From: a virus
DNA length: 34,037 nt
Virus record (IMG/VR): IMGVR_UViG_3300027747_003667
Coordinates: 1-34,037 of that record
Strand: one strand, 5' to 3'
The notes under the pieces were generated by a model, which was not told where the DNA came from, did no database searches, and worked only from the letters and a program-made list of their open reading frames with translations. Every line of letters starts with the position of its first letter. Positions within the stretch are counted from its first letter, which is position 1. Made by a program: the position numbers and the translations under genes. This document shows, piece after piece, positions 6,372-27,655 of this stretch.

Positions 6372-6380
6372 AAGAGTCGC

Positions 6381-8795
6381 ATGCCATTTGATCACAGAGC
6401 CCCCAAATCCAAACCCACAGGCACTGGACCATATATAGCCGAAATAACCAATCATTTAGATCCTTTGAAAATGGGTCGACTGGAAGTGGTTGTGGTTGAT
6501 GGTTTGATGAATTCCAGAACCAATCAAAATGAAACTTATATAGCCAACTATATCAGTCCTTTTCAAGGAGCCACATCTGTAAGATTTGAAGGAACCAACC
6601 CGTCCAGCTTCAATGATGTGCAAAAAAGTTATGGTTTTTGGATGATCCCGCCTGATATAGGCTGTAGGGTATTGATCATATTTGTCAACCAAGATCCCAA
6701 CCAATGCTATTGGATTGGCTGCGTGGGTGACACTTATCAAAATCACATGGTACCAGGCATTGCAGCCAGTTTGGATTCCAGTATGACATCCGCTCAATTG
6801 AAAAAATACGGACAGTCCACTTATTTGCCAGTAGCAGAATACAACAAATCAACTGTGGAAAGAACAAACAGTAGAAATCCCAACATTGATAAAAAATTAA
6901 AGCCCGTGCATCCTTTTGCAGATAGACTTTTAGAGCAAGGTCTATTAATGGACACTATACGCGGGGTCACCTCCAGCAGTGCTAGGCGTGAAACTCCCAG
7001 TTCAGTGTTTGGTATAAGTACACCTGGACCTTTGGATCCCAACGGACCCAAAAAGGCAATCAGCAAAACAAGGAAAGATTTTTTAGCGCCTGTAAGTAGA
7101 TTAGGTGGCAGCACTTTTGTAATGGACGATGGTGATATTAACGGTCAAAATGAGTTAGTTAGAATAAGAACAAGAACAGGGCATCAGATACTGTTGCACA
7201 ATTCAGCTGATTTGATTTACATAGCCAATTCTGCAGGCACATCATGGATAGAGTTGACCAGCATGGGCAAGGTGGACATTTATGCAGCAGACTCGGTGAG
7301 CATTCATACTCAAGGGGACTTCAATCTTAGAGCTGATAGAGATTTCAATCTGGAAGCAGGTAGGAAATTCAATATAGCTACTGGTTCTGGAGATGTCAAC
7401 GTTAATGCAGGGAAAAATTTCAATTTGCTGGCAGATGGAATAAAAGTAAGATCTTTCAAAGATATCAATTTTACATCAGATACAGAAACCAAGATTGCAG
7501 TGGGGGAAAATTTTGGTGTGGCTGTAACTGGCGATTCCAATATTTTGATTGGCGGCACAGCTAACATCAGTTCAATAGACCAATTAAATGTTATTTCTGA
7601 AAATAGAGTGGCAATAAAATCAAATACTGATTTGGCTTTGAGTGCCGGCGAATCTATAACTGCATCGTCTACCATCATTGACATGAATGGAACCCCTGCA
7701 ACTAGTCCGTCAACTGCAATACCATTTACAGTTGACACCCCAGCGCCTTTAAATTTTTTCTCTGTACCTCAAAATTCGCCAGGTGAGTGGAATAATAATT
7801 TTTATTCAGCACCTAATCTCACATCTATAATGTCAAGGATTCCCAGTCATGAGCCTTGGGCACAACACGAAAATGTTAACCCTGATCAATTCAATCTAGC
7901 GAATACAGATGCTACTATTGGTACTACTATACCAGGAAATATTGGAGAACCAAAATCAGTGTTTAGTAGCACTCCAAAATATGTAGTTGCAGGCACTGGG
8001 TCTTCCCCAACATTTGCTGGACAGTCTGCTAACACTACTCCTTCAAGTAGTTTCTTGCCCAGTGTTAGCGAGCAGGACAAGATCAAAGCCGAACAAGCTG
8101 CCCAATCTGGCATCAAAGGTCAAGCGGCACTCAAAAAAGCAGCTGAACAGTTGGGCATGACTGAAATCAACGCTATTGCCAGCTTGTTGGGTATTACTGG
8201 TGGTGAAAGTTTGTGGAGAATTGAAACTGAAAACTTTAATTATAAAGCAGATAGATTGATTCAAGTATTCCCGTCAATATTTAAAGATAATCCCACCTTG
8301 GCCCAACAGTATGCTGGAAATCCAAATAATTCATTACCAGAGCTTTTATATGGATATCAAAGCCCTATTGGAAAACGACTTGGTAATACACAGCCAGGTG
8401 ATGGATCTAAATATGTTGGAAGAGGATTTATTCAATTAACAGGACGTAGCAATTATGCTCGATATAGTCAGCTTATGTACGCCAACGGGTTTGTTCCTAA
8501 GCCCACTACATTATTAGATGAACCGGACGCTTTGAATACTCTGATCGTGGCTGCCCAAGTCAGCGTGATATACTTGTTGGATAGGGTCAAAATCTCTCAA
8601 GCAGATGATGGATACTTTTCATCATCACTGAAAGCAGTAGGATACAATACTCCTGACATATTGGCTAAAAAGACCAGTTTCTATGAATACTTTTTGGAAC
8701 AATTAAAGCCGCAACAGGATGTTTTGAGATCAGGGTCTGGGCAAATAATAAAAGATTCTCAAGGCAACCCAATAAGAACAGGTAGGATAGACTGA
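6381..8795 (+). CDS. 5: gp5-like central spike with beta-helix and C-terminal GH19 lysozyme domain
   Basis: An 804-residue baseplate spike. Residues about 15-130 look like the OB-fold of gp5/VgrG proteins (GPYIAEITNHLDPLKMGRLE at the start, and IPPDIGCRVLIIFVNQDPN later). Residues about 255-450 form short repeats of the VgrG/gp5 beta-helix type, alternating hydrophobic and polar residues (for example SIHTQGDFNLRADRDFNLEA). Residues about 570-790 are a glycoside hydrolase family 19 domain: the proposed catalytic Glu609 in GITGGES, NFNYKADRL, then the GRGFIQLTGRSNYARY signature near 680. It should pierce the outer membrane and cut peptidoglycan during injection. In T4 the lysozyme sits between OB-fold and beta-helix and is of the T4-lysozyme type; here it follows the helix. 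GAAAGAG precedes the start. Confidence 0.85.
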   Translation: MPFDHRAPKSKPTGTGPYIAEITNHLDPLKMGRLEVVVVDGLMNSRTNQNETYIANYISPFQGATSVRFEGTNPSSFNDVQKSYGFWMIPPDIGCRVLIIFVNQDPNQCYWIGCVGDTYQNHMVPGIAASLDSSMTSAQLKKYGQSTYLPVAEYNKSTVERTNSRNPNIDKKLKPVHPFADRLLEQGLLMDTIRGVTSSSARRETPSSVFGISTPGPLDPNGPKKAISKTRKDFLAPVSRLGGSTFVMDDGDINGQNELVRIRTRTGHQILLHNSADLIYIANSAGTSWIELTSMGKVDIYAADSVSIHTQGDFNLRADRDFNLEAGRKFNIATGSGDVNVNAGKNFNLLADGIKVRSFKDINFTSDTETKIAVGENFGVAVTGDSNILIGGTANISSIDQLNVISENRVAIKSNTDLALSAGESITASSTIIDMNGTPATSPSTAIPFTVDTPAPLNFFSVPQNSPGEWNNNFYSAPNLTSIMSRIPSHEPWAQHENVNPDQFNLANTDATIGTTIPGNIGEPKSVFSSTPKYVVAGTGSSPTFAGQSANTTPSSSFLPSVSEQDKIKAEQAAQSGIKGQAALKKAAEQLGMTEINAIASLLGITGGESLWRIETENFNYKADRLIQVFPSIFKDNPTLAQQYAGNPNNSLPELLYGYQSPIGKRLGNTQPGDGSKYVGRGFIQLTGRSNYARYSQLMYANGFVPKPTTLLDEPDALNTLIVAAQVSVIYLLDRVKISQADDGYFSSSLKAVGYNTPDILAKKTSFYEYFLEQLKPQQDVLRSGSGQIIKDSQGNPIRTGRID

Positions 8796-8808: not shown

Positions 8809-9246
8809 ATGCCATACAAAACTTTAGAAATTTCCAACGCTGCATCAGTTTATGAGCAAAATCCCAAAACCAGTCAATTTTACAAGGGATTTTCTAGCGT
8901 TGATATATCCAACATCAACAGCAAATTGTATGATATAGATATTATTAGACAAGATTTGATCAATCAATTTAGGATTCGAAAAGGTGAAAGATTGATGAAT
9001 CCCACATTTGGCACAATTATTTGGGATATCATTATGGAACCAATGACCGATGAAGTCTATGAATTACTATCACAGGATATATCATCAATATGCAACAGTG
9101 ATCCAAGAATAGTCCCAATACAAATAAACATCAATGAAGATCAAGGGGGATATTTGATCGAGATCACAGTGCAGGTAGTGGATACAGATCAAACGGCCAC
9201 TTTGAAATTGAGTTTCAATCAAGAATCAGGATTGATTGTACAATAA
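8809..9246 (+). CDS. 25: gp25-like baseplate wedge protein
   Basis: A 145-residue protein of the gp25 family, the wedge component at the sheath-baseplate contact in contractile tails and type VI secretion (TssE). The hallmark is residues 57-78, RKGERLMNP then TFGTIIWDIIMEP, including the EPR-like loop region of this family. Length is close to the usual 130-150 residues. It sits 13 nt after the spike gene, and the order spike, gp25, gp6 is usual in marine T4-like phages. No strong ribosome-binding sequence is visible, so translation may depend on that of the gene before it. Confidence 0.9.
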   Translation: MPYKTLEISNAASVYEQNPKTSQFYKGFSSVDISNINSKLYDIDIIRQDLINQFRIRKGERLMNPTFGTIIWDIIMEPMTDEVYELLSQDISSICNSDPRIVPIQININEDQGGYLIEITVQVVDTDQTATLKLSFNQESGLIVQ

Positions 9247-9293: not shown

Positions 9294-12200
9294 ATGTCTA
9301 TACCAGCCACTAATTCAAAATTACTTGTTACCGAAGATTGGAAAAAAATATATCAGTCTTATCAAAACGCCGAATTTCAAAGCTATGACTTTGATACACT
9401 GCGTAGGATACTTATTTCGTATCTTCAAGAAAATTATCCTGAAGATTTCAACGATTTTATTGAAAGCAGCGAATACATTGCATTGGTGGATTTGATTGCT
9501 TATGTAGGTCAAAATTTAAGTTTCCGTATTGATCTAAATGCTAGAGAAAATTTTTTAGAAACTGCACAGCGTAGAGACAGCATTTTGAGATTGGCACAGC
9601 TAGTCAGCTATGTGCCCAAACGCAATGTCCCTGCCAGTGGACTTTTGAAATTATCAGCAGTAAGCACAACTGCCAATGTTTATGATCAAACAGGCAACAA
9701 TTTGTCAGGAAGCACAATTGTTTGGAATGATTCAACTAATATCAATTGGTACACACAATTTATCAGTATTATAGACAATGCCATGTCAGGTGACTTGTCG
9801 TTTGGAATGCCTTACGACAGCGATGTTTTGAATGGGGTTGAAACTCAACAATATATAATTAATAGTTCAAATGTGGATGTGCCAGTCTATGCCTTTGATC
9901 AAAATATCAATGGTACTAGCATGCATTTTGAAATAGTATCTTCCACATTTTCAGGAAAAAATTATATCTATGAAGATCCTCCAAAACCAGGAAATGCTTT
10001 CAAAATACTGTACCAAAATGACAATCAAGGATCAGGCAGTGCAGGCACAGGATTTTTTACCCTTTTCAAACAAGGTACTCTTGGTATCAGCAATTTTGGA
10101 ATAGTCAATCCTGTACCTAATGAAATTATAGGAATCAATGTCAACAATATCAACAATTCTGACAGTTGGTTGTGGGAGTTGGATACTTCTGGAAACTATA
10201 CATCTTTGTGGGATCAGGTGCCTGCAACCAGCGGCAATAATGTTATATACAACAGTTTGAACAAGTCTCGCCGAAATATCTACAGCATCAGCACCAGAGA
10301 CAGGGATCAAATTGATTTGAATTTTTCTGATGGGGTATTTGGCAAACTGCCCAACGGCCAATTTCAATTGTTTTATCGTCAAAGCAACGGATTGTCATAC
10401 AATATATCTCCAGATCAAATGTCTGGAATATCAGTAGCAGTTCCTTATATTGATAAGTCGGGAATCAGTCAAATTTTGACCATGATTTTGAGTTTGGAAT
10501 ACACAGTGACCAACAGTGCTGCATCTGAGTCAAACACATCAATTCAAAAAAATGCTCCGCAGGCCTTTTATACTCAAAATAGAATGATCACAGCTGAAGA
10601 TTACAGCATTGCACCTTTGACATATACCACCAACGTGCTCAAGATCAAGAGTGTGAACAGGGTGAGTAGCGGCATCAGCAAATACTTTGAGCTCAGCGAT
10701 GTCAGTGGAAAATATAGCAAAACTAATATTTTTTGTGATGATGGCATTATTGCCAAGTCCGCATCCAGTGCGGATTATACCTTTAGTTTTTATAATCAAA
10801 ATAACATTTGGGAAATGATAAAAACTTACCTATTGCCCAAGGTACTGTCCTCCCCAGAAATTCAATCTTTTTACTTGGACAATTATAGAACTTATAGACC
10901 TATATTGGTAGAGCCAGACAGTGCAAAAATAACCTGGGTACAGGTGGGTAGTCCTGTTGTGGGACAAAGTAGAGGATATTTTCAAGCACCATTATTGAAT
11001 CCAAATTCACAAGATTATTATCTTAGACCTATTGGTGTTCGACAAGAACCTGCCGATTTGGTAAACAACCCCTTGTATTATGTACAAGCTGGATCTTTGA
11101 TAAAATTCAAAGCACCCAAAGATGCCTTTGGCAGGGATCAATATTTTTTGCCTGACGGAACACTGACGCTGTCATCTTTGAATGCCAGTTTATACTTTTG
11201 GTCTAACGTGCAACAGGTGATTGGTACTGGTGATAATAACGGAACTGGTGCTTTGGATGATGGAACTGGCCCCATAATACTCACTAACACTATTCCAGAT
11301 AGATCAGCAATAGTTGAAATAGTTCCGCCATTTGTCACTACTCTTGATTACAATTTTCAATCCAACATAATAAATTTATGTTTGAGCTATCAGTCTTTTG
11401 GGTTGAGATTTGATTCAACACTGAGAAGCTGGAAAATAATTTTTAGTGGAAATTTGAATAAAAATTTTGATTTATCCAATGTGGGGCTATCAGTCATGTT
11501 GGATTACGAAGGTGACAACTCCAATGCCAACAAAGATTCTAGCTGGCTGGTGTTATTTGATTTTCAAGGTGAAAAAACATACAAAGTCACTAATAAACTG
11601 ACACAATATGTGTTTAAAAGTGAAAAGCAAACTGGTTTTTATTTAGATGATACAAATAACAACTACGATTATGTAACCAATACCATAGTCAAAGATAAAA
11701 TATCAGTGCTATCCATCAATGCCAAACCAAATTCTAACTATCCCCTACAAAGAGACTATGTTTGGCAAATCACCGGTACATCCACTCAGTCAGATGGTTA
11801 TGTGGATCCGTCTTTGATTTTTGTGGGATTTTATTCTAATAATTCAATAGTGGGAAATCAAAAAATCACCATTGATCCTGAATCCTTTGACAACATCGTG
11901 GGAACCAATCCTACCGTTATTGATATAAATGGCAAATCTTATGTAGGTAGATCTGGATTGAAGTTTCAATATGAGCATAATCCTTCTGGTAACACTAGAA
12001 TAGACCCTGCCAAAAGCAACATCATTGACATATATGTTTTGACCAAAGATTACGATTTAAAATTTAGAAATTGGTTGTTGACTGGAAGTGGTAGCAAACC
12101 CTTGCCCCCCACTACTCAAAGTTTGGAAAACACTTATAGTGCAGATTTGGATGCTATAAAAGCAATCAGTGATCAAATCATATATCAGCCTGCATCTTAT

Positions 12201-12569
12201 AAGATACTATTTGGCGAATATGCTGACCCAAATTTACAAGCCACTTTCAAAGTGGTCAGAAGTCCTACCAGTACTATTAGTGACAATGCAATCAAATCCA
12301 AAGTACTGGATGCAATAAATCAATTTTTTGCTTTGGAAAACTGGGATTTTGGACAATTCTTTCACTTCAGCGAGCTATCCGCCTACATTATGAATTTATT
12401 GACACCAGATATCACCAATTTCCTATTGGTACCTTTATCCACAAATTTTGGAAATTTACAAGAAGTAGCATGCCAATCAACTGAAATTTTTATCAGCGGC
12501 GCAACTACTAACAACATCAAAGTAATTTCTGCTGTTACGCCGGCCCAACTGGAAATGGGAACATACTAA
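9294..12569 (+). CDS. 6: gp6-like baseplate wedge protein
   Basis: A 1091-residue wedge protein. The N-terminal 110 residues are typical of gp6: a KIYQSYQNAEFQSYDFDTLR segment, then LISYLQENYPEDFNDFIESS, then EYIALVDLIAYVGQNLSFR and LNARENFLETAQRRDSILRL. The C-terminal segment (SKVLDAINQFFALENWDFGQ, then FHFSELSAYI) fits the baseplate-J/gp6 iris-forming domain. In T4, gp6 dimers form the inner ring of the baseplate that opens at contraction. T4 gp6 is 660 residues; the extra length lies in the middle (about residues 130-900). A small out-of-frame ATG occurs at 9284; the start at 9294 is preferred because it gives the conserved N-terminus. It is followed with no gap by the giant gene. Confidence 0.85.
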   Translation: MSIPATNSKLLVTEDWKKIYQSYQNAEFQSYDFDTLRRILISYLQENYPEDFNDFIESSEYIALVDLIAYVGQNLSFRIDLNARENFLETAQRRDSILRLAQLVSYVPKRNVPASGLLKLSAVSTTANVYDQTGNNLSGSTIVWNDSTNINWYTQFISIIDNAMSGDLSFGMPYDSDVLNGVETQQYIINSSNVDVPVYAFDQNINGTSMHFEIVSSTFSGKNYIYEDPPKPGNAFKILYQNDNQGSGSAGTGFFTLFKQGTLGISNFGIVNPVPNEIIGINVNNINNSDSWLWELDTSGNYTSLWDQVPATSGNNVIYNSLNKSRRNIYSISTRDRDQIDLNFSDGVFGKLPNGQFQLFYRQSNGLSYNISPDQMSGISVAVPYIDKSGISQILTMILSLEYTVTNSAASESNTSIQKNAPQAFYTQNRMITAEDYSIAPLTYTTNVLKIKSVNRVSSGISKYFELSDVSGKYSKTNIFCDDGIIAKSASSADYTFSFYNQNNIWEMIKTYLLPKVLSSPEIQSFYLDNYRTYRPILVEPDSAKITWVQVGSPVVGQSRGYFQAPLLNPNSQDYYLRPIGVRQEPADLVNNPLYYVQAGSLIKFKAPKDAFGRDQYFLPDGTLTLSSLNASLYFWSNVQQVIGTGDNNGTGALDDGTGPIILTNTIPDRSAIVEIVPPFVTTLDYNFQSNIINLCLSYQSFGLRFDSTLRSWKIIFSGNLNKNFDLSNVGLSVMLDYEGDNSNANKDSSWLVLFDFQGEKTYKVTNKLTQYVFKSEKQTGFYLDDTNNNYDYVTNTIVKDKISVLSINAKPNSNYPLQRDYVWQITGTSTQSDGYVDPSLIFVGFYSNNSIVGNQKITIDPESFDNIVGTNPTVIDINGKSYVGRSGLKFQYEHNPSGNTRIDPAKSNIIDIYVLTKDYDLKFRNWLLTGSGSKPLPPTTQSLENTYSADLDAIKAISDQIIYQPASYKILFGEYADPNLQATFKVVRSPTSTISDNAIKSKVLDAINQFFALENWDFGQFFHFSELSAYIMNLLTPDITNFLLVPLSTNFGNLQEVACQSTEIFISGATTNNIKVISAVTPAQLEMGTY

Positions 12570-15500
12570 ATGTCAACTTCAACAATTCAATCAGTCAATC
12601 TATTACCAGTTTATTTTCAAACTGATAAAAATTCCAAATTTTTATCAAGCACTATAGATCAATTGATTCAGCCCACACAAATATCACGGATCAATGCCTA
12701 TATTGGGTCGACATCCACACCTAACTATTCATCTGATGACTTGTACGTTGTGGAGCCCACTGTTCTAAGACAAGCATATCAATTGGAGCCAGCTTTGGTG
12801 ACTTATGATATAGCAGATACAATACAAACAGTGACCACAATTGATGATTTGTTCAATGAATTATCAAACAATGGCAGTGACACTGTCAATGTTGATAGAC
12901 TGTTTAGAAGCACAGTGTACAGCTACTACCCACACATTGATTTAGACAAATTCAACAATTACCAAAATTACTATTGGTTACCAGATGGATCGTTTTTGGT
13001 GGACATTGATCAAGTTGATTTGGATATTGACACAAGTATTGTGGGACAGTCCGCAGCAACTGTCACTGTGAACTCACAGACAGTCACACTATTAAATGGC
13101 ATGCTGGTCACATTTTCAGGATTGGGTATTGATGACAAATATAAGTTTAAAGAATTTTTTGTAGAGGGTACTGGTACTTCAATATCATTGGTGCCACTAA
13201 ATGATCTTTTGACTCCAGAAGATATAGCCACCCCAACTGTTGATTTTTATGACTCAACAGCATATGACAGTGTGGGATTTGATGCTGTCAGCAATTATCC
13301 AAAAATTCCTGAATACATCACTATTAATAGAGCCAGTAAAGATCGCAATCCTTGGTCTAGATACAATAGATGGGTCAGTTTGGACACCATTATTGTCAGC
13401 TCCAAATTGAACAACAAAGAAGTTATTACTCCTATTTCCAATCGCGCCAATAGACCCATCATTGAATTTAACGCCAATATCAAATTGTATAATTTTGGAT
13501 CTGAGGCAGTACCGGCTGTTGATCTAATAGACTTTAGAATAACAGATGTGTTCAGCGTTTTACAAACTGTTGAAGGTCTTGATGTGACTTTGAGAACATT
13601 TGCTCAAAGTGAGCTGTTGATTGACGGCGTCAAATTGGAATACGGTAATAGAGTAATTTTTGCCGCTGACCCCAATCCTGAGATAAGAAATAAAATATAC
13701 ACCGTGTACCTATATCAATTGGGAGGTAGCACTACTACTAATGTGACTTTGATTCATCAAATTGCAGAGAAAAATCAATCTGTTTTGATCAAAAGAGGTG
13801 TTGAATATGGCGGTACCAGTTGGTATTTTAATGGTGATAATTGGGAGTATGCTCAACAGCATAAAACAATCAATGAGGGACCGTTATTTGATCTATTTGA
13901 CCGTGATGGCATCAGTTACAATGATAGGAAACATTATCTATCAGACTTCAAAGGCAGTAAGATTTTTGGATACAGTCTTAGCAATACCAATCCTATAGAT
14001 AAAATCTTGGGATTGAGATTGAACTATCTCAACAACAATGTTTATGCCAGTATTTTATTTGAAAATTATTATGCCAATTCTACTATCAATGTAGCAACAA
14101 TGGGAAACACCAGCTATTCAATAAATTCCAATCAAACTTATCTCAAAATAGATGGCACGTTGTTTAATATTTGGCAGACACCGAGAACCTATGAGGTAAA
14201 TTTCAACGACGCATTTGGCTACTATGATGTTCCTATAAGTTTGACCAATAATCCTTTAAACAAAGATTTTGATATTCTAGTGGCAGGAGATTTAAAAGAT
14301 CAAAAAACACCATTTGGAACCAGATTGGTAGCCAATGATAATCCAATCAGCTTTGCCATGATGTTTTTGGGCAAAAAGCAGCACAGTGTCGTTGATGCAA
14401 TGACCAAACTATCAGTTGATTATGATTATTTCAAATTGAGTCTAATAAACAATATAATCTTGACCACAAAGCCCAATGACCCAGCATTGGCATTGGATCA
14501 AATCATAAAAAAAATTAATTTAGGTAAAAACACAAAAAATTCATATTATCTATCTGACATGGTGCCTCATGGTGATAATAAAATCACCATTGACCACACT
14601 GTTACTAACATCGACAATCTGTTATATTCCATACCTAAAGAATTTTCTTTAAAAGTTTATTCCACAAACAGTGTTTTGGTTTATCTAAATGGTAAACAGA
14701 TGGTGCATGAAATTGATTATAAATTTGACGATATTGAGCCTTATGTTTTGTTTTTGCGACCCTTGGCTGTTGCAGATAAAATAAAAATCAATTATTACAA
14801 TGATACTAAACGCAGTTATATTCCATCAACTCCTACAAAATTGGGGCTGTATCCCAGTTTTTTACCAAAAATTTATATTGATGATTCATATGTTAATCCA
14901 ACTGCTGTGATACAAGGTCATGATGGCAGCATCACTGTTGCTTTCAACGATTTTCGAGATGAAATTATTTTGGAATATGAATTAAGAATTTATAACAATT
15001 TAAAAACTTTTTATCAAGATGATTTATTTGATATTCATGCAGTTGACCCTAATTATGATAGAGATTTATCAAATACTAGTGAGTATTCTTATTCTGAAAT
15101 CACAGCTATTTTGGAAAAAGATTTTATCAAATGGGCTATAAATTATGGCATTGATTACACAACAAATGACGTCTATGACGAAACTGACCCATTCACTTGG
15201 AAATATGCTGTAATAGACAATACCAGTATCACCGGCTCCTGGAGAGCAATTTACAAGTATGTTTATGGCACAGATAGACCACATACTGATCCTTGGGAAA
15301 TGCTGGGATTAACCATGAAACCATCTTGGTGGGATTCTCAATATGGCGTAGCTCCTTATACCTACGGCAATAGTTTGTTATGGTCTGATCTAGCACAGGG
15401 AAAAGTGAATGATCCAATTAATGGACCAAAGATTCGTGAATTGTATGTTAGGTCGTCTCTAGTCAGTTACATCCCAGTGGATGACTATGGCAATTTGCTT

Positions 15501-18500
15501 GATCCTGAAACATTGGGCATAGCAGTCAATCTTGGCAAACAATCAAGTTGGGCAGTTGGCGAACAGGGCCCTGCTGAAACAGCTTGGCGGCGCAGCAGCA
15601 ATTGGGCATTTTCTGTACAAAAAATGCTGGCCGTAACCAAACCAGCTACTTATGCCTCTAGAATGTACGACCCAGCCAACATGTATCAAAACATTCTTGG
15701 TCAGTGGCTATATAAACCCAATGAGGCATTTTTGCAATTGAACAATGTACCTATACATGGCAAAAATGAAATAGCAAATATCAGTGGATACAGTGTGGCA
15801 GTGAGTGAAATAGGGCAGCAAAGAGATCTAAATTATCTTGAAAATCTAAAAAACGACTTAACATATTGCAGTTTCAATCTGTTTTACAAAGTGGGCGGTT
15901 TCTTGAATAAAAATAATATACAAATTGTTATAGATGCTTACGAACCCACCACCAATGCCCCGGGTGCATCATTGCCTGACGATGATTACAGGTTGATACT
16001 AAAAGTCAGTAACCCAATAAAAAGCGTGGGTATCTCGGGGTTAATCATACAAAAAGATGGCAGCAGGTACATTGTCAAAGGATATGATAGAGACAATCCA
16101 TATTTTACATATTACCCTGCAGTTAGAAATTCATCAACGCCCTCCATTACTATTGGGGGGGTAAGCAGTGAATATGTTGATTGGGCACCATCTCAGTCGG
16201 CAACTTCAACTAAAAATTTAAAATCTATAGATTTGACCACTGCTCAAGCTGCACCATCTGGTGTATTTTATAAAAAAGATCAAATAGTTTACTATTCTGG
16301 AAATTTTTATAGAGTAAAAAATTCCCATCAGTCAGGATCAACTTTTGATCAAACCATGTATGTTAAATTGTCTGCACTGCCCACAGTTGGTGGTGCAACA
16401 GTTTATCAAGTTGCAAGTTTTGAACCCACTGCTTACCAAGTGCCCTATGGTCATGCTTTTGACAGCGTGCAGGAAATTTATGATTTGATAATTGGTTATG
16501 GCAAATGGTTGACTGATCAAGGATTTGTTTTCAATCAGTTCAATTCTGATTTGCAACAGGTGGTAGATTGGAATTTGACGGCCAAAGAATTTTTATTTTG
16601 GACCACCCAAAATTGGATCAATGACAGTATAATTACTCTAAGCCCTTTTGCAGATCAACTCAGTTATCAATTTTTTGAATCCATAGTAGATAACATTTAT
16701 AATGGTTTTTATGATTACAGTTTGACCAAAGCAGACGGAACGCCTTTTAACAAAAACAATTTGTTCATAACAAGACAAAATGGAATTTTTAACGTAAAAA
16801 CTATAAACACTGATGATGGTATCTATTTTGCTAGACTGAATTCCATACAAAAAGAGCACGGTATTGTGTTTAAAAATAAAACAATTTTTGGAGACATTGT
16901 ATATGATGTAAAAACTGGTGATAGACAAAATCGCATGAAGTTGGTGGGATTCAAAACAGCCAACTGGGATGGAAATGTATTTTCTCCAGGATTTGTTTAT
17001 GATGCTGCCAAAACTGTTGAATGGGCACCCAATAACACATATCTTGCCAGCAGCATTGTCATTTACAATAATTTGTATTACAGTGCAATTAGAAATATCA
17101 GCAGATCATCCACGTTTGATTTTACCAAATGGAAAAAATTAAATAAAAAACCCACCTCGGGGCTTTTACCAAATTTTGATTATAAAATAACTCAATTCAA
17201 TGATTTTTACAGTTTGGACATTGACAACTTTGATTCGGGTCAGCAAAAATCAGCACAGAATTTGACTGGATATGCTAAAAGAAAGTATTTCAGCAATATT
17301 ATTCCCAACCCTATATCTCAATATAAATTTTATCAAGGCTATATCAAGGAAAAAGGCACATTTAATGCAGTGAGGAAATTGTCAAAGGCCTTTGCAAGAA
17401 ATTCTATTGGTGATATTGAATTGTATGAGGATTGGGCGTTGAGAGTGGGTCAGTATGGTGGATTTACATCTTTGGAGGAATATGAATTTCCGTTATTGGA
17501 AGGTGCTTTATTAAATAATCCGCAAATTTTGACTTTTTCTTCTGAATTCAGCAATGTAAAAAATACCACAGTTTATTATATTGACAGCAAAAAATTAACT
17601 CTAAGTCCAAAAATAGGAGATATCCCTGTTTTAAGCACTACAACATCAACAAATATATTTCAATTGATTAGCGCTGGCTATGTGAGGCTGGACGATGTTG
17701 ACGCTACTGCTTACAATCAAAACAGTTTGTTGGATATTGCAAATAATAGTAACTTGCTGCAAGGAACCACAATCTGGTTAGGATTCAAGCCCAATGGGGA
17801 TTGGGATGTGTTACGCTACTATTTGATCAGTGCTGACATTGTTGATGTTACGGCAGACATCGTGTTCAGTAGTCTAACAGTTAGTACAACCAGGCCTCAT
17901 GGGTTGATTACTGGGCAAATTATTTCTATAACAGGCATAAGTGATTTGATAAACGGAGTATACGTGATACAATCAATAGTTTCTTCCAATCAGTTCACTA
18001 TTGACAACAGCAAATTGTTTACCAATTCTCAAGATGTAAATTATCCTGGATTTTTATTTGCATTTCAATCCATGCGATTTTTAAACTTTGACTCCATGCC
18101 ATCAGACAATGAATTGTATTCTTATGATGTTGGCACCTTGATTTGGGCAGACTCGGGAAATGACACTGATAACAATGGTTGGGCAGTGTACAAGAAAGTT
18201 TTAAATTATTCCAATCAAATTATTGTTGGAACACACTCTGCTCTATCAGAAGGCCACGGATATAGCATTAGTGCAAGAAAAGGCAGCGACATTTTGGCAG
18301 TGGGTAGTCCTCTATATACCAGTAGCGGACAATCTGGGGGTCTGTTTGTATATAGAAGCTCAACTTTGGAAGAAATTATTTTTTACTCCATGCCAAATAC
18401 AGCAGGCAATGATAATAGATTGGGTAGTTCCATAATCTATGATGATACCCCATACCCAACTCAATCTAATTTTGGACTAGTGTTTGCTGGTGCTCCGGGA

Positions 18501-21500
18501 TCTTATTCCCAAGACGGTAGTGTTTTGATCATCAGCATCAATAATGCCTATCAAGCAACTGTTGAAAGCACTATTAACAATCCAGTTGGCGGAGCATCCA
18601 ATCAGTTTGGGTCTAGTATCTTTGTTCAAAGAAACACAAACACCAAAAAAGTCATCGTGGGAGCTCCTGTAAATAATGCCGCATATTCTTATATTGTAAC
18701 AGCAAATCAAGTGAGTGGTGTTACTGTGAGTCAGCCCATAGCGGTTAATTCGGTAGAGTCTCTAAGTGCCAATGCCAATTGGGGTTATGCGATTGTGGGA
18801 TCAGATGATGCAACCCACATAGCCATTAGTGCTCCTTATAACAATTTAAAAAATATAAATTTTGTAGTAGCCAATAGTGCTACATCATTCGCATATGATA
18901 TTGGTCATGTTGCTGCGCTGTATACAGTGTCAGGGTCAACAGTGGCTCAAACTATATACAGTCCATTTGGGGACAATGGGCATTTTGGTTTGGCTATGGC
19001 CATGAGTTCAGATGCATCATATCTAGCCATTGCTGCACCTAACACATTGAATCCAAATAATAGTAGAGGTGCGGTGGCAATTTATACCATTACCAACAAC
19101 TTGTATGTATTGAATCAAATATTGTCCAATGTGGTGACTGATAGCAAAATGTATTTTGGTATGGCGTTGGATATAAACACATTATCAAACAAACTGATAG
19201 TTTCGTCGTTGGGCACAAATACTACAGTGCTGACAACCTTTGATACAATAACAACATTTGACTTGGATTCAACAAGATTTTTTGAATCTGAAGATTATTC
19301 AGGAACTACATACCTATACACAAGAAAAAATTCAAGATTTGTGTTTAGTCAAGAAGTCAATGAATTGACTGAATCTATTTCATCATTGACCAATTTTGGT
19401 GCTGCGGTGTCAATTGATGAAACGGTTATATTTGTTGGCGCTCCAAGTACAGTGAATCAAAGCACTGGCAGTGTCTATAAATTTTCTCAAATTGATAAAA
19501 GCACAAATGGTTGGCAAAAACATAGAACGCAGGAAAACTTGGTAGATGCATCTTCTGTAAAACAGATAAAATTGATTGATACATCTCGCGATAGCATACT
19601 GACCTACTATGATTATGTTGATCCAATAAAGGGCAAGATTCTAGGAATTGCAGATGAAGAGTTGGCATACAAAACAGCCAGTGACCCAGCTATATACAGC
19701 ATAGGTGGCATGGGGGTCAATGTTGATACCAATAACAGTTGGATTGATCAACAAGTGGGACAGCTGTGGTGGGATTTGAGTAACGCCAAATATATTTGGT
19801 ATGAGCAGGGAGAACTGGAATATAGAAAAAATAATTGGGGCAAACTATTTCCAGGAGCAGGCATAGATGTGTACGAATGGGTAGGTACCAGTTTATTACC
19901 CAGCGAATGGAGTGTGCAAGCAGATACTCCTGCAGGTTTGTCAAAGGGTGTGAGTGGTCAGCCCAAGTATGTAGATAACAGTACTATATCAGTTAAACAA
20001 ATATACGACAATATAACCAACAGCTTTAGTAATCTTTATTACTACTGGGTAAAAAATAAAGTCACACTGCCCAACATCAACAGCAGAAAAATCAGCGCAT
20101 TTTCTGTGGCCAGTTATATAGCCAACCCCACATTGGCAGGTATACAGCATGTTGCTTTTATATCTACCAGCTCTCTAACCATATCCAATTTTGCTGATAG
20201 GTTGCGAGAAGATCAAATCAGTTTAAATCTAACAATTGATAAATCAAATAATAAAACTCCATTGCATGTGCAATGGCAGCTGGTGGCCGAAGGATCTGAC
20301 AAAAGCACAATCCCGGCACTGATAGAAAAAAAATTAATTGATAGTCTCATTGGACATGATGAGCTGGGCAATCCTGTACCCGATACATCTCTATCTGATA
20401 GATCAAAATTTGGGATTGGCATTAGACCACAACAAACATTATTTTCTAATCGATCTGCAGCTCTTCGAAATGCCATAGAGTTTGTCAACACAGTGCTGAT
20501 AGATCATCAAATTGTTGGCAATTATAACTTTTCCAATTTGCAAACACAAGAGCTTCCACCTCAACCCACAACATCGTCTTGGATAATTATAGAAGATGAT
20601 ACATTGATTGTAAAAATTGATGTCAATCAAACAACCACTGCAACAGTGCTGGTTGATTCTAGTTCAAATAATGGCTGGGCAGTGTATCAGTATGATGGCA
20701 CCGTATGGAACAAAATTCAAACTCAGAGTTTCAATACCAATCTTTATTGGACATATGTTGATTGGGAATCGCCATTATACAACAAGTACAAAGAAATAAA
20801 CTTTATTGTCAACGATGTCTACGAGATTTCAGAGCTAGTCGTGAGTTTTGGTCAATATGTAAAAATTAGAAATAGAGGAGATGGTAATTATATTATATTA
20901 ACTCCCACCAGCAATGGCGGTATTGGTACTTTTGGCAATAGCTATGATGTGTTATACATACAAAACGGCACCATACAGTTCAAAGATAGTTTATGGGATC
21001 TTCCATACGGTTGGGATAAGAATGCAGCCTTTAATCAATTATTATTTGATCAAAGCCCCGGCATAGAAATTGCCTACATACTCAAAGCGTTAAAGAACGA
21101 TATTTTCATAAATGATTTAAAAATCAATTGGAATTTGTTATTTTTTAAATCTATCAAATATGCACTTTCGGAACAAAAATTTGTGGATTGGGCGTTCAAA
21201 ACTTCTTTGGTAGATGTGGTCAATTTTATAGGAACATTGACACAAACACCCATTTACAAATTGCAAGACACTGCATATTATGAAAATTACATCAATGAAG
21301 TTAAACCATACCATACTCAAGTGAGAAGATTTTCAGCTGCATTTAAAAATGATGAAAATTCTAATACCACAATATTAGATTTTGATCATCCTTTTGTTTA
21401 TAGCACAACCAGCAGTCAATTTGTACCAACTCCTATTCCACTTAGTGAATTTGTGTATCCCGAGGCTTACGTGCCTGACACTGGCCAAATAATCACTGCA

Positions 21501-24500
21501 GGGTTAGGATTACCTCCCAAAATCAAGTTGATAACTGTGCCTTGGAGATCAGTTACTAGTTCAATTAAATTTGACAGGATTTCAACAAGAGATGATATTG
21601 GCAGTCTAACAGTGACTGACAACTTTGTTGGAACCGCCAATTTGAATAGCTATCAACTCAGTTGGTTGGCTCAACCTGATAAATCAAAAATTTCTGTCAC
21701 AATTGATGATATTCCAGTATTTCAATCATTATATACCATATCATATGACAGTAAATCTTACAATGGCTATACAAAAAAATACAGTTATCTTAAATTGTTG
21801 TTGGGATCTACTCCCAACAATTTGGCACCAAATATAAAATTCAATATCAGTATTACCTATCAAAAAAGCACAGAATTAATGTCAGCAGTGGAAAGGATAA
21901 AGAATTTTTATCACCCATTTGAAGGCATGCCAAACAAAATACTTTCTCAACTCATGTCTGGCACCGCAGAGTCAAGAAAAATTATAGGTGGACAGTATGA
22001 AGGTCTAGGATTTGGAAATGTGAATTCTGGTATTTTAGCAGATAGCATCTTTAATCCAAGTGACTCTGATTACCCCACATGGAATGGTAGTGGTTTGATA
22101 AATGCTCTTGGTGCAAGCCCTAATGATATAGTAATTGGTGGTGGCAACATTTCTGAAAACTCCAAAATACCCAAATCTCTATTGGGCAAAGTAACCAATT
22201 ATGGAGCATGGGATGCATCCACAAACACACCTCCTCTTCAATATGATCAAGGCAGTTTGGGTGATCTCTATGTGGTAGAAAAAGCAGGCAATTTTGCACT
22301 TGGTACATTTGCCAATAGATTTGTTTCAGGGGATCAAATTATATTTGATGGATCAAATTGGAAAATTTTGCCGGCTACGCCCAGTCAATCTTTGGAAGAA
22401 CAGGTGCCAGGGTTCTCAGCTGATTCCATAGCCATAAATGTGTACACCAAAGCAGCATATCAAACTCCGTCAATCTTTAACTCCAGTGCGAATATAGCCA
22501 AATCAACACAAACTCAAGTATTGAGTTTATCAGTAATGCCACCGACCATTGACAGCATGATAGTCTCACTTAACGGACGCTTGCTTGACTATGTTTATTC
22601 AGACAAGTATTTTACCACATCAACGCAGTTTTCCATTAACTGGCCCAATGAGACTCTGCTCATTCCTGCTCAGAAAACAGATGGGATATTGGGCTACTCA
22701 ATCATTGGAGTTGGGGATTCAGACAAGACTGGTTTGGGAATACTTGACACAGAAATATTACCTGTATTGGTCACTGCCACCAACACATCCACTAGATTGA
22801 TAGGTATGGTCAACTTTAATGCAGTAAACAGTGCCTATGTGACAGTGGATGGTACTCCAATCAATACCACAACTTCTTTGACATCTACTTTTTATAATTT
22901 AAACACTGTCAGTAGTAGAGACAGTAGAGTTGCAGTGGATGTATACAATTTGACCACAGGAACACATTTGATTCAATCTTGGTTTTTTAATTCAAGTAAC
23001 CCCAATTTCAATAAAATTGTTGAACAAAATTATAAAGCAGGCAACACTCCTAGTTTTGTGAACAATGCAAATGGTTTTGCTACTGGCATTGGTTTGGTCA
23101 ACCATCCCCTAAATGATGTTCCTTTTAGTTCACAGGTTGTAGTTGAATTGATACCAGACAGGGGAAATCCCGTAAGACTTAGACCCCCCTATTCAACGTA
23201 CTACTCAGTGACTAACAGTGATTATAATGCTGCCACATATTTGATAGTGGGTTCCACTTCATCCTTTGTGGTGGATACAGTACTGGCATCGAATATACAA
23301 GTTTATCTAAACAACGTGCCGTTGGATTTTGGTATTGATCAAGATTATATTATAACCAACAATGCAGTTCAGTTAACATCAAGGCAAACGACATTTGGCA
23401 ATGCCCCAGTAATTGGCAGCAAAATAGTTATTGAAACTTTCTATTATAATCATGTGGGAAGATCAGTGTCTATTATAGATGGTTCTGTAAAGTACGACTA
23501 TGATTTCATGATCACCCCCGATGGCAACACACTTTTATTAACGCCCAATTACAGCTATCTCACATCAGCCACGATAAAGATAACCACATTCGCAATACAG
23601 GACAGTTTGGGCATAGTATTAAAGAGGTTTGTGGGAAATCCCAATAGGACCTACAAATTGGATGCTCCTATTTTGAATTCAAAGTATCTTTGGGTAGAAA
23701 TCAATACCACATCAACTGGTTTGATATCTTTGATCAATGGTATAGATTATCAAATACTGCCTGATCAGTTGACTGTGTTGCTTAGTAATGCATTTTATCT
23801 AACTAACCAAGATACTGTTTTTATAGAAAGTTTTGCTGATCCAGGAAAATCAGCAAAAACTTTGGGTTATCGAATCAGCAAAGATTTTCTCGGAAAACAT
23901 CATTTTACTAGACTGAGCAATGATGACTCCACATACTTGACAAAACCGTTGTCAGTGTACGATACAGAAATATATGTGGCTGACGGCAGTGTATTAAGCC
24001 CGTTTGATCCCGCGACCAATAGTCCTGGTGTAGTATTAATAGAGGGTGAAAGAATAGAATTTTTTAAAAATATTGACAATGTACTGGGACAATTACGTAG
24101 GGGCACTTGGGGGACCAGCCCAGCTGAATATTCAGACGTTGGTACTACTGTTCTAGATCAAGGGGTCAATCAAATAATTTCATCTGCCCCTGCCACACCA
24201 TATTCTGATATAACACTGATTCAAAACACATACACTAGTATTAATTTAGAAAATTCTTATGCAATCAGCACCACCACCATATACAATTGGATCAATCCAA
24301 TAACCTCTTCAACTGTGAGATGTGATGGTATCAAATTAATGACCACAGTTTCTACACTACCCTATGACCCCTATACTGGGATAGCAACATATACTGGAAG
24401 AGCTTATTCTGTATCCACTTCCAGTATCAATGCTAGCGATCAATTGGAAATCTATTACGGTGGCAGGTTGTTGAATAAAAATCAATATTTTTATCATGAT

Positions 24501-24965
24501 GCCTCCACGTCCTACGATGGTATATTAGTGAGTCAAATAAAAGGATCAGTTTCAAATGTGTCTTATTTGTCCACATTGACACAGTCAGTAGGAGATGCTT
24601 ATATTTGTGAAGATTCTAATGAAGTTTGGGTATGCACTGAGAATCAATATAATATAGCATCTGTGCCGTTTTATGTTTATTCAGGACTAAAGAGATCGCT
24701 GCCCGACTTTGCAATAACCACTGCCAGTCAAAATTTGATTTTGAACACAGCAACAGTAAAAATTAATTCTGGAACACAGTTGACTATAGTCAAGAGACAG
24801 TTAGGGTCTTCATGGAATGACATCATTTCAATAAATTCCACTACATCCCTGTTGAACAGCACCAGCACCATTGCAACTTTCTTGAAGTCTGGTCCGGCTG
24901 TTCTTCCTTCCAATTACTTTTATGGTTCTGCATCAACAATAGCCAAACCAGGCGGTGGACTATGA
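12570..24965 (+). CDS. giant multidomain baseplate/tail structural protein (4131 aa)
   Basis: One uninterrupted frame of 4131 codons, starting directly after the gp6 stop in the place where T4 has genes 7 and 8. The N-terminus (VNLLPVYFQTDKNSKFLSST, YPHIDLDKFNNYQNYYWLPDG) resembles large virion proteins of marine and other T4-like phages that I recall as a family without assigned function. Inside are two gapless chitin-binding-like modules (residues 1232-1267 and 1489-1524), an FG-GAP-like propeller of seven repeats (about 1889-2307), a DPIKGKILGIADEELAYKT segment after it, an EVKPYHTQVRRF segment near 2910, and several short modules with a V-x-L-N-G core (for example near 690 and in the last 900 residues). 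Most likely a wedge or peripheral baseplate protein that also carries adhesive modules. Function is inferred from position and domains. Confidence 0.7.
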   Translation: MSTSTIQSVNLLPVYFQTDKNSKFLSSTIDQLIQPTQISRINAYIGSTSTPNYSSDDLYVVEPTVLRQAYQLEPALVTYDIADTIQTVTTIDDLFNELSNNGSDTVNVDRLFRSTVYSYYPHIDLDKFNNYQNYYWLPDGSFLVDIDQVDLDIDTSIVGQSAATVTVNSQTVTLLNGMLVTFSGLGIDDKYKFKEFFVEGTGTSISLVPLNDLLTPEDIATPTVDFYDSTAYDSVGFDAVSNYPKIPEYITINRASKDRNPWSRYNRWVSLDTIIVSSKLNNKEVITPISNRANRPIIEFNANIKLYNFGSEAVPAVDLIDFRITDVFSVLQTVEGLDVTLRTFAQSELLIDGVKLEYGNRVIFAADPNPEIRNKIYTVYLYQLGGSTTTNVTLIHQIAEKNQSVLIKRGVEYGGTSWYFNGDNWEYAQQHKTINEGPLFDLFDRDGISYNDRKHYLSDFKGSKIFGYSLSNTNPIDKILGLRLNYLNNNVYASILFENYYANSTINVATMGNTSYSINSNQTYLKIDGTLFNIWQTPRTYEVNFNDAFGYYDVPISLTNNPLNKDFDILVAGDLKDQKTPFGTRLVANDNPISFAMMFLGKKQHSVVDAMTKLSVDYDYFKLSLINNIILTTKPNDPALALDQIIKKINLGKNTKNSYYLSDMVPHGDNKITIDHTVTNIDNLLYSIPKEFSLKVYSTNSVLVYLNGKQMVHEIDYKFDDIEPYVLFLRPLAVADKIKINYYNDTKRSYIPSTPTKLGLYPSFLPKIYIDDSYVNPTAVIQGHDGSITVAFNDFRDEIILEYELRIYNNLKTFYQDDLFDIHAVDPNYDRDLSNTSEYSYSEITAILEKDFIKWAINYGIDYTTNDVYDETDPFTWKYAVIDNTSITGSWRAIYKYVYGTDRPHTDPWEMLGLTMKPSWWDSQYGVAPYTYGNSLLWSDLAQGKVNDPINGPKIRELYVRSSLVSYIPVDDYGNLLDPETLGIAVNLGKQSSWAVGEQGPAETAWRRSSNWAFSVQKMLAVTKPATYASRMYDPANMYQNILGQWLYKPNEAFLQLNNVPIHGKNEIANISGYSVAVSEIGQQRDLNYLENLKNDLTYCSFNLFYKVGGFLNKNNIQIVIDAYEPTTNAPGASLPDDDYRLILKVSNPIKSVGISGLIIQKDGSRYIVKGYDRDNPYFTYYPAVRNSSTPSITIGGVSSEYVDWAPSQSATSTKNLKSIDLTTAQAAPSGVFYKKDQIVYYSGNFYRVKNSHQSGSTFDQTMYVKLSALPTVGGATVYQVASFEPTAYQVPYGHAFDSVQEIYDLIIGYGKWLTDQGFVFNQFNSDLQQVVDWNLTAKEFLFWTTQNWINDSIITLSPFADQLSYQFFESIVDNIYNGFYDYSLTKADGTPFNKNNLFITRQNGIFNVKTINTDDGIYFARLNSIQKEHGIVFKNKTIFGDIVYDVKTGDRQNRMKLVGFKTANWDGNVFSPGFVYDAAKTVEWAPNNTYLASSIVIYNNLYYSAIRNISRSSTFDFTKWKKLNKKPTSGLLPNFDYKITQFNDFYSLDIDNFDSGQQKSAQNLTGYAKRKYFSNIIPNPISQYKFYQGYIKEKGTFNAVRKLSKAFARNSIGDIELYEDWALRVGQYGGFTSLEEYEFPLLEGALLNNPQILTFSSEFSNVKNTTVYYIDSKKLTLSPKIGDIPVLSTTTSTNIFQLISAGYVRLDDVDATAYNQNSLLDIANNSNLLQGTTIWLGFKPNGDWDVLRYYLISADIVDVTADIVFSSLTVSTTRPHGLITGQIISITGISDLINGVYVIQSIVSSNQFTIDNSKLFTNSQDVNYPGFLFAFQSMRFLNFDSMPSDNELYSYDVGTLIWADSGNDTDNNGWAVYKKVLNYSNQIIVGTHSALSEGHGYSISARKGSDILAVGSPLYTSSGQSGGLFVYRSSTLEEIIFYSMPNTAGNDNRLGSSIIYDDTPYPTQSNFGLVFAGAPGSYSQDGSVLIISINNAYQATVESTINNPVGGASNQFGSSIFVQRNTNTKKVIVGAPVNNAAYSYIVTANQVSGVTVSQPIAVNSVESLSANANWGYAIVGSDDATHIAISAPYNNLKNINFVVANSATSFAYDIGHVAALYTVSGSTVAQTIYSPFGDNGHFGLAMAMSSDASYLAIAAPNTLNPNNSRGAVAIYTITNNLYVLNQILSNVVTDSKMYFGMALDINTLSNKLIVSSLGTNTTVLTTFDTITTFDLDSTRFFESEDYSGTTYLYTRKNSRFVFSQEVNELTESISSLTNFGAAVSIDETVIFVGAPSTVNQSTGSVYKFSQIDKSTNGWQKHRTQENLVDASSVKQIKLIDTSRDSILTYYDYVDPIKGKILGIADEELAYKTASDPAIYSIGGMGVNVDTNNSWIDQQVGQLWWDLSNAKYIWYEQGELEYRKNNWGKLFPGAGIDVYEWVGTSLLPSEWSVQADTPAGLSKGVSGQPKYVDNSTISVKQIYDNITNSFSNLYYYWVKNKVTLPNINSRKISAFSVASYIANPTLAGIQHVAFISTSSLTISNFADRLREDQISLNLTIDKSNNKTPLHVQWQLVAEGSDKSTIPALIEKKLIDSLIGHDELGNPVPDTSLSDRSKFGIGIRPQQTLFSNRSAALRNAIEFVNTVLIDHQIVGNYNFSNLQTQELPPQPTTSSWIIIEDDTLIVKIDVNQTTTATVLVDSSSNNGWAVYQYDGTVWNKIQTQSFNTNLYWTYVDWESPLYNKYKEINFIVNDVYEISELVVSFGQYVKIRNRGDGNYIILTPTSNGGIGTFGNSYDVLYIQNGTIQFKDSLWDLPYGWDKNAAFNQLLFDQSPGIEIAYILKALKNDIFINDLKINWNLLFFKSIKYALSEQKFVDWAFKTSLVDVVNFIGTLTQTPIYKLQDTAYYENYINEVKPYHTQVRRFSAAFKNDENSNTTILDFDHPFVYSTTSSQFVPTPIPLSEFVYPEAYVPDTGQIITAGLGLPPKIKLITVPWRSVTSSIKFDRISTRDDIGSLTVTDNFVGTANLNSYQLSWLAQPDKSKISVTIDDIPVFQSLYTISYDSKSYNGYTKKYSYLKLLLGSTPNNLAPNIKFNISITYQKSTELMSAVERIKNFYHPFEGMPNKILSQLMSGTAESRKIIGGQYEGLGFGNVNSGILADSIFNPSDSDYPTWNGSGLINALGASPNDIVIGGGNISENSKIPKSLLGKVTNYGAWDASTNTPPLQYDQGSLGDLYVVEKAGNFALGTFANRFVSGDQIIFDGSNWKILPATPSQSLEEQVPGFSADSIAINVYTKAAYQTPSIFNSSANIAKSTQTQVLSLSVMPPTIDSMIVSLNGRLLDYVYSDKYFTTSTQFSINWPNETLLIPAQKTDGILGYSIIGVGDSDKTGLGILDTEILPVLVTATNTSTRLIGMVNFNAVNSAYVTVDGTPINTTTSLTSTFYNLNTVSSRDSRVAVDVYNLTTGTHLIQSWFFNSSNPNFNKIVEQNYKAGNTPSFVNNANGFATGIGLVNHPLNDVPFSSQVVVELIPDRGNPVRLRPPYSTYYSVTNSDYNAATYLIVGSTSSFVVDTVLASNIQVYLNNVPLDFGIDQDYIITNNAVQLTSRQTTFGNAPVIGSKIVIETFYYNHVGRSVSIIDGSVKYDYDFMITPDGNTLLLTPNYSYLTSATIKITTFAIQDSLGIVLKRFVGNPNRTYKLDAPILNSKYLWVEINTTSTGLISLINGIDYQILPDQLTVLLSNAFYLTNQDTVFIESFADPGKSAKTLGYRISKDFLGKHHFTRLSNDDSTYLTKPLSVYDTEIYVADGSVLSPFDPATNSPGVVLIEGERIEFFKNIDNVLGQLRRGTWGTSPAEYSDVGTTVLDQGVNQIISSAPATPYSDITLIQNTYTSINLENSYAISTTTIYNWINPITSSTVRCDGIKLMTTVSTLPYDPYTGIATYTGRAYSVSTSSINASDQLEIYYGGRLLNKNQYFYHDASTSYDGILVSQIKGSVSNVSYLSTLTQSVGDAYICEDSNEVWVCTENQYNIASVPFYVYSGLKRSLPDFAITTASQNLILNTATVKINSGTQLTIVKRQLGSSWNDIISINSTTSLLNSTSTIATFLKSGPAVLPSNYFYGSASTIAKPGGGL
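16263..16370 (+). repeat. chitin-binding-like module 1 in the giant protein
   Basis: Encodes residues 1232-1267. The pattern Y-x-x-x-x-IV-x-Y-x-x-x-x-Y, later STFD and a final KL, aligns without gaps over 36 residues with the segment at 17034-17141. The layout resembles CBM5/12 carbohydrate-binding modules, but the key aromatics are only partly present. Confidence 0.4.
17034..17141 (+). repeat. chitin-binding-like module 2 in the giant protein
   Basis: Encodes residues 1489-1524, the second copy of the 36-residue module. It is preceded by WAP, giving the W-x(n)-Y-x-x-x-x-V-x-Y order seen in CBM5/12-type modules. The copies are diverged at DNA level and so are old. Confidence 0.45.
18235..19491 (+). 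repeat. seven FG-GAP-like repeats (predicted beta-propeller) inside the giant protein
   Basis: Encodes residues about 1889-2307. Seven units of the form FG-x-S/A ... (I/L)-x-(V/A)-GAP ... G-x-(V/A)-x-x-Y begin near 18250, 18420, 18598, 18777, 18976, 19150 and 19393. Clear examples are FGSSIFVQ then KKVIVGAP, FGLAMAMSSDASYLAIAAP, and FGAAVSI then FVGAP. Seven blades is the count of integrin-type propellers, which bind proteins or sugars. Unit six is the most degenerate. Spacing is about 57-80 residues. Confidence 0.7.
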
Positions 24966-24973
24966 TATAAATA
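24966..24973 (+). promoter_or_regulatory. T4-type late promoter box TATAAATA upstream of the 214-aa structural gene
   Basis: An exact TATAAATA beginning on the base after the giant gene's stop codon and ending 20 nt before the preferred start at 24994. Expected transcription start is near 24980, which favours 24994 over the upstream in-frame ATGs at 24955 and 24979. Confidence 0.75.
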
Positions 24974-24993
24974 ATACTATGGAAAGATCAAAA

Positions 24994-25638: not shown

Positions 25639-25641
25639 ATA

Positions 25642-26424: not shown

Positions 26425-26426
26425 TC

Positions 26427-27653: not shown

Positions 27654-27655
27654 AC
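27648..27655. other. convergent stop codons in a GTTTAAAC palindrome
   Basis: The plus-strand fibre gene ends with TAA at 27651-27653 and thyA ends on the minus strand with TAA at 27650-27652, inside an 8-bp palindrome. No hairpin terminator is visible at this junction, so the opposing transcripts may overlap. Confidence 0.9.

Follow-up and report, generated by a model that had tools for sequence, protein, structure and literature searches.

A predicted seven-bladed integrin-alpha-type beta-propeller inserted in a wedge-like baseplate protein of uncultured jumbo myophages, a putative surface-binding module

The stretch of DNA analyzed here (the window) is the whole 34-kb IMG/VR record IMGVR_UViG_3300027747_003667, 34,037 nucleotides long, and represents part of the genome of a freshwater jumbo myophage of the RaK2/Atu_ph07/PA5oct type. 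It carries a giant gene (12570..24965, plus strand, as are all features below unless stated otherwise) for a virion protein of 4131 amino acids (aa). Gene order and homology support its assignment to the baseplate, of which it would be a wedge-like scaffold. Residues 1878–2318 of this protein (18201..19523) are predicted to fold into a closed beta-propeller with seven blades, of the integrin-alpha/FG-GAP_2 kind, resembling in shape the head by which human integrins bind their ligands. The propeller is inserted at the turn of a scaffold beta hairpin and is retained at the same site across the sampled clade of relatives. We regard it, with moderate confidence, as a putative surface-binding (adhesion) module of the baseplate.

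The initial annotation had described seven FG...GAP-like units at positions 18235–19491. The repeat region was confirmed, but the frame was one base late, and reading from the first base of that span gave a translation full of stops; the coding frame runs from 18234 to 19490, i.e., residues 1889–2307 of the open reading frame (ORF) 12570–24965. All seven cores were present in the corrected frame (GYSI..VGSP, LGSSI..AGAP, FGSSI..VGAP, WGYAI..ISAP, FGLAM..IAAP, FGMAL..SSLG, and FGAAV..VGAP in blades 1–7). Thus strand A bears FG and strand B bears GAP, in degenerate form, in all seven repeats, and blade 6 has lost the proline of GAP (SLG instead). In the leave-one-out test, hidden Markov models (HMMs) built from six blades of the relatives, without the window, were run on the window protein, and 50 shuffled sequences of 4131 residues served as decoys. 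The left-out blades were recovered every time, with scores of 13.2, 4.5, 10.3, 5.2, 19.5, 8.0, and 21.1 bits for blades 1–7. The best shuffled decoys reached 2.0–6.0 bits and were exceeded by six of the seven blades; blade 2 did not rise above them (4.5 vs. 6.0 bits). Over the remainder of the 4131-aa protein the blade HMM scores never exceeded −2.8 bits.

The fold was modeled by AlphaFold2 with an alignment of 75 sequences. The model had a predicted local distance difference test score (pLDDT) of 80 and a predicted template modeling score (pTM) of 0.81, with the propeller blocks mostly above a pLDDT of 90 and two weak loops, at about residues 2094–2112 and 2221–2236. The Foldseek search against the PDB ranked integrin alpha chains first (7.9e-14). 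Superposition of the model on the whole integrin alphaM propeller with VIA-align 2 gave a Z score of 39.3 at 2.9 Å over 355 residues with 18% identity. The aligned part, model residues 48–488, corresponds to protein residues 1878–2318, and the whole alpha propeller was covered (chains 1..452, Z 35–39), from which closure of the ring is deduced. A second model of 900 residues, including more of the scaffold, left the strand pattern of the propeller unchanged. The seven-bladed integrin-type count and fold put forward in the initial annotation were therefore borne out by the model and its superposition, the predicted fold being a complete propeller of that type; the structure-based limits of the domain are slightly wider than the span first given.

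DSSP analysis of both models placed an N-terminal strand at residues 1880–1886 (18207..18227), which, judging from the strand order, would close blade 7. The core of blade 1, strands A–C, comprises residues 1896–1929 (18255..18356). It is followed by the cores of blade 2 (residues 1950–1990, 18417..18539), whose loop between strands B and C (BC loop) varies from 3 to 37 residues among relatives, and blade 3 (residues 2011–2046, 18600..18707). Blade 4 (residues 2070–2119, 18777..18926) has a long BC loop, of 25 residues against a median of 9; blade 5 (residues 2138–2175, 18981..19094) precedes blade 6 (residues 2195–2252, 19152..19325), in which the SLG variant is accompanied by a long BC loop with TFD motifs. 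The core of blade 7 lies at residues 2275–2307 (19392..19490).

Profile searches led to the same family. Pfam FG-GAP_2 (PF14312) matched the 419-aa piece with 28.5 bits (cut-off 23), and only in the last blade, the sole window blade recognized by this model; it stayed under the cut-off when the full 4131-aa protein or a 590-aa piece was scanned, and PF01839 did not match the window. In a relative with 61% identity both models scored above their cut-offs (FG-GAP_2, 37.3 bits; PF01839, 24.3 bits), and FG-GAP_2 matched 63 of the 75 relatives scanned singly (E ≤ 0.01, the best 2.8e-14). When the 75-sequence profile was compared with all PDB sequences, integrin alpha chains came out on top, alpha4 first (4.5e-13), then alphaM, alphaIIb, alphaV, alphaL, and alphaE, so that both the FG-GAP_2 and the integrin-alpha profiles match the domain. 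Among isolated phages, tblastn found no match to the propeller of the window, and the family consensus gave one weak match, a stand-alone gene of phage Phosso. Pfam HisK_sensor (PF18698) also matched blade 1 of the window propeller (18276–18359) and of those of 10 of the 75 relatives, probably reflecting likeness to a single propeller-like blade.

Besides its fold and FG-GAP repeats, the integrin propeller has two further defining features, a calcium-binding DxDxDG loop and the Cage motif (PMC8023676, PMC3192720). The calcium loop, expected between strands A and B of blades 4/5–7, was missing from every one of the 75 propellers, the motif being found in only two sequences, both times in the linker preceding the propeller; the AB loops had a median length of 3–5 residues in six of the seven blades. 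The seven blades of the window all lack the Cage motif in its strict form (aromatic-aromatic-G-aromatic, followed by P and by G), and a looser G..P..G form was present in most relatives, except in blade 6. The likeness to integrins suggested at the outset thus extends to the fold and not to the calcium sites; as the calcium loop and the strict Cage motif are absent, the domain has an integrin-like fold but is classed with the FG-GAP_2-type propellers. It shares with the integrin alpha propeller (e.g., alphaM, 9t3y/7p2d) the seven blades, the FG...GAP cores, superposition over the whole domain, and a variable upper face, and differs from it in sitting within a phage baseplate protein without a transmembrane part or a beta partner.

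The position of the insert was defined by comparison with isolated phages. The upstream scaffold strand WAVYKK (residues 1871–1876, 18180..18197) and the downstream strand WQKHRTQENLVD (residues 2315–2326, 19512..19547) are the two halves of a split hairpin. The segments NGWAVYKK on the 5′ side of the propeller and NGWQKHRTQENLVD on its 3′ side correspond to one unbroken hairpin in PA5oct (NDWAVAVVSGSTITNIRSRQNLVD) and SCTP-2 (NRWAVYYFNSGKWNLDYKEQDVID), with which the window sequence aligns once the propeller is removed. Insertion at the hairpin turn would leave the scaffold undisturbed because the ends of the propeller appear to meet in one blade. The same site holds about 18 residues in RaK2, 121Q, and XaC1 compared with about 490 in the window, short unrelated stretches in PA5oct, SCTP-2, and Vibrio 2.275, and about 1300 residues of different sequence in Atu_ph07 and Phosso. 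The Atu_ph07 and Phosso inserts contain glycine-rich repeats of the type GGxGYTSxPxVxVxGGxGxGA with no convincing Pfam family, and the SCTP-2 insert at this place (residues about 2120–2360) resembles, by eye only, a LamG-type jelly roll. The propeller HMM found no match at E ≤ 1 in nine isolate homologues (RaK2, 121Q, XaC1, PA5oct, SCTP-2, Vibrio 2.275, Atu_ph07, Phosso, and RAS14). A propeller inside the scaffolds of Atu_ph07 and Phosso, suggested by a loose alignment, was ruled out by the HMM and Pfam.

The search of IMG/VR with the scaffold yielded at least 587 confirmed relatives; the 80 closest were retained, together with 80 from a second search. In these loci the propeller was present in all 157 ORFs having both flanking anchors, 99 of them distinct at 90% identity, a sample biased towards the clade of the window because the closest relatives were taken. 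A peptide-pattern search had found only two relatives with the propeller, and its apparent rarity was shown by the scaffold search to be a limit of that method. The propeller HMM also matched two more distant marine contigs. In a contig of a marine metagenome-assembled genome (MAG), labelled Euryarchaeota and carrying a related scaffold, FG-GAP repeats occur in two clusters (residues 244–357 and 889–1251 of the long ORF). A genome search for a host returned only two marine MAG contigs, which resemble binned phage DNA, and no host is claimed.

The variation within the propeller was unevenly distributed. Among the 75 relatives, the standard deviation of loop length averaged 6.6 residues for the BC and DA loops of the upper face versus 1.8 for the AB and CD loops (p = 0.0017), with the caveat that the alignment is anchored by the motif on strands A and B. 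The BC and DA loops form the ligand side in integrins. Most invariant positions of the blade consensus carry structural residues (G, P, W, and F). Divergence is faster in the propeller than in its surroundings, with a mean identity of 0.39 where the flanks have 0.60–0.65. No cassette exchange was seen among close relatives, in which the propeller and the flanks diverge together.

That the giant protein belongs to the baseplate, as originally annotated, is supported by its neighborhood and its homologues. It occupies the position of T4 gp7, right after a gene for a gp6-like baseplate wedge subunit (9294..12569; phrog_10646, E 2e-264; phrog_219). The latter is preceded by a wedge subunit that is gp25-like by size and position (8809..9246; phrog_43, phrog_261) and by a gp5-like baseplate hub subunit and tail lysozyme (6381..8795; phrog_13211, E 3.5e-50; endolysin families). 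The order of the gp6-like gene and the giant-gene homologue is the same in RaK2, 121Q, XaC1, PA5oct, Atu_ph07, and Phosso. Over the scaffold, the protein matches the profile phrog_10938, "virion structural protein" (1020 bits), and tblastn, with matches in 60 and 63 phage records, found homologues in RaK2, 121Q, PA5oct, Atu_ph07, Phosso, and SCTP-2; the annotation of the PA5oct homologue records its detection by electrospray ionization tandem mass spectrometry (ESI-MS/MS). In T4, gp7 is the wedge protein next after gp6; it is monomeric, and the baseplate has six copies of it along its periphery (PMC3004832). The gp7-like placement of the scaffold follows gene order only, because the profile of its first 1500 residues (12 sequences), compared with solved structures, matched no gp7 chain.

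The giant protein also contains a CBM_5_12-like stretch (type 5/12 carbohydrate-binding; residues 1484–1506, 17019..17087; Pfam 27.2 bits, cut-off 26.2), with weaker matches in the homologues of Atu_ph07, Phosso, SCTP-2, and PA5oct. Directly 3′ of the giant gene lie fibre-like genes (24955–27653). Two overlapping ones, 25642–26424 and 26376–27653, both match phrog_15511 and phrog_14394, the second having a tail-fibre match as well, and are possibly paralogous. The baseplate block is flanked by minus-strand genes (1–1952 and 27650–28534) for an SbcD-like nuclease subunit, a late sigma factor, and thymidylate synthase.

Propellers are known from other phages. Gp213 of Sinorhizobium phage AP-J-162 was found by modeling to resemble human integrin 3VI3 (PMC11242549), the 393-aa "hemagglutinin" of Atu_ph07 (A0A2L0UZX4) has an integrin-like propeller fold, and Phosso encodes gp129 and gp130 (5125–7530) as tandem stand-alone genes matching FG-GAP_2 (3.3e-28 and 2.3e-17), adjoined by four genes of about the same size in which Pfam recognized no family. 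Like the window, these are jumbo phages with a homologous scaffold and an integrin-like propeller, but theirs are encoded by separate genes of about 375–395 aa outside the giant wedge-like protein, in which the insertion site is occupied by other sequence. In phiKZ, gp131C is a seven-bladed propeller at the baseplate periphery, proposed to be a receptor-binding or degrading domain (PMC4901313); by description it shares with the window the setting of a jumbo-myophage baseplate, though it is the C-terminal domain of another protein, and it was not among the matches listed when the window model was compared with known folds. The receptor-binding protein (RBP) Gp45 of phi11, with a propeller and a proposed N-acetylglucosamine (GlcNAc) cavity (PMC4901313), likewise places a beta-propeller in a host-recognition device, but it is five-bladed, and the RBP is trimeric, sits at the tail tip, and is not a wedge insert. 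The wedge protein Gp119 of Vp4 was shown to bind bacterial cells (PMC11406892); it resembles the window protein in carrying surface-binding modules on a wedge protein, and differs in that these are carbohydrate-binding folds and no propeller, and the host is Gram-positive.

In the adhesion reading, the scaffold, lying beside gp6 in the wedge and probably present in six copies as is T4 gp7, would hold the propeller at the edge of the baseplate or on its lower side. During adsorption the variable upper face, formed by the BC and DA loops, would touch a glycan or protein structure of the host surface, in addition to the contacts made by the tail fibres. Such a grip on the host surface is probable because the propeller is inserted where related viruses have nothing or other modules. 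The integrin-type fold and sequence kinship, the baseplate setting, the scaffolds that do without the propeller, the variable upper-face loops, the faster divergence, and the CBM_5_12-like stretch in the same protein are consistent with adhesion, and phi11 Gp45, phiKZ gp131C, and Vp4 Gp119 may be taken as precedents. Several points weigh against this reading. The top loops of propellers may vary in general, and variation concentrated on one face would also be expected from docking to a variable partner; the close relatives do not swap the propeller as a cassette, as it diverges together with its flanks; the separate fibre-like genes could encode the true receptor binders; and the scaffold is placed in the wedge without a sequence match to T4 gp7.

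The main rival, which we consider a good deal less probable, is that the propeller serves in docking or assembly, its variable face holding a sequence-variable fibre, spike, or wedge neighbor and making no contact with the host. Phage propellers can indeed be structural, as the seven-bladed propellers of the SU10 and T7 nozzles are structural and fibre-docking parts (PMC9509320), and the insertion domain of the A-1(L) wedge protein carries the long tail fibre (PMC10966104). The location of the fibre-like genes immediately 3′ and the retention of the propeller, never swapped, throughout the sampled clade point in the same direction. Nevertheless, the propeller is missing from the scaffolds of RaK2, 121Q, and XaC1, and unrelated inserts take its place in others; it is therefore not required by the baseplate that these phages share. 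An enzymatic domain degrading a surface polymer, as proposed for phiKZ gp131C, seems improbable: many beta-propellers are glycan-active, and the nearest folds of the phi11 propeller are mostly carbohydrate-degrading enzymes, but here the nearest matches in sequence and fold are non-catalytic integrin/FG-GAP propellers and the blade invariants are mostly structural. Least credible of all is a relict whose present role is only space-filling; the fast divergence and the lack of the propeller in isolate homologues would suit it, but the domain is kept in all sampled relatives with intact blade cores and near-constant bottom loops.

What is new here is the place and the constancy of the module and not its kind, which was already known because separate genes for integrin-like propellers had been described in jumbo phages; in the literature searched, no description was found of a propeller inserted in a wedge-like scaffold. 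Tentatively, the wedge scaffold of jumbo myophages might be viewed as a fixed hairpin slot filled in each lineage with unrelated surface-binding modules, the abundant freshwater clade having its own domain for binding the host receptor, distinct from the tail fibres, in the form of an integrin-like propeller free of calcium sites. A fold of the integrin-alpha type, which is an adhesion head in animals, here lies within the organelle by which abundant uncultured phages attach, at one site of a giant baseplate protein; at this site, entire modules distinguish the lineages. The propeller is a domain of known limits, open to expression and testing, and, if the proposed role is true, the insertion site would be a place to seek host-range determinants besides the tail fibres.

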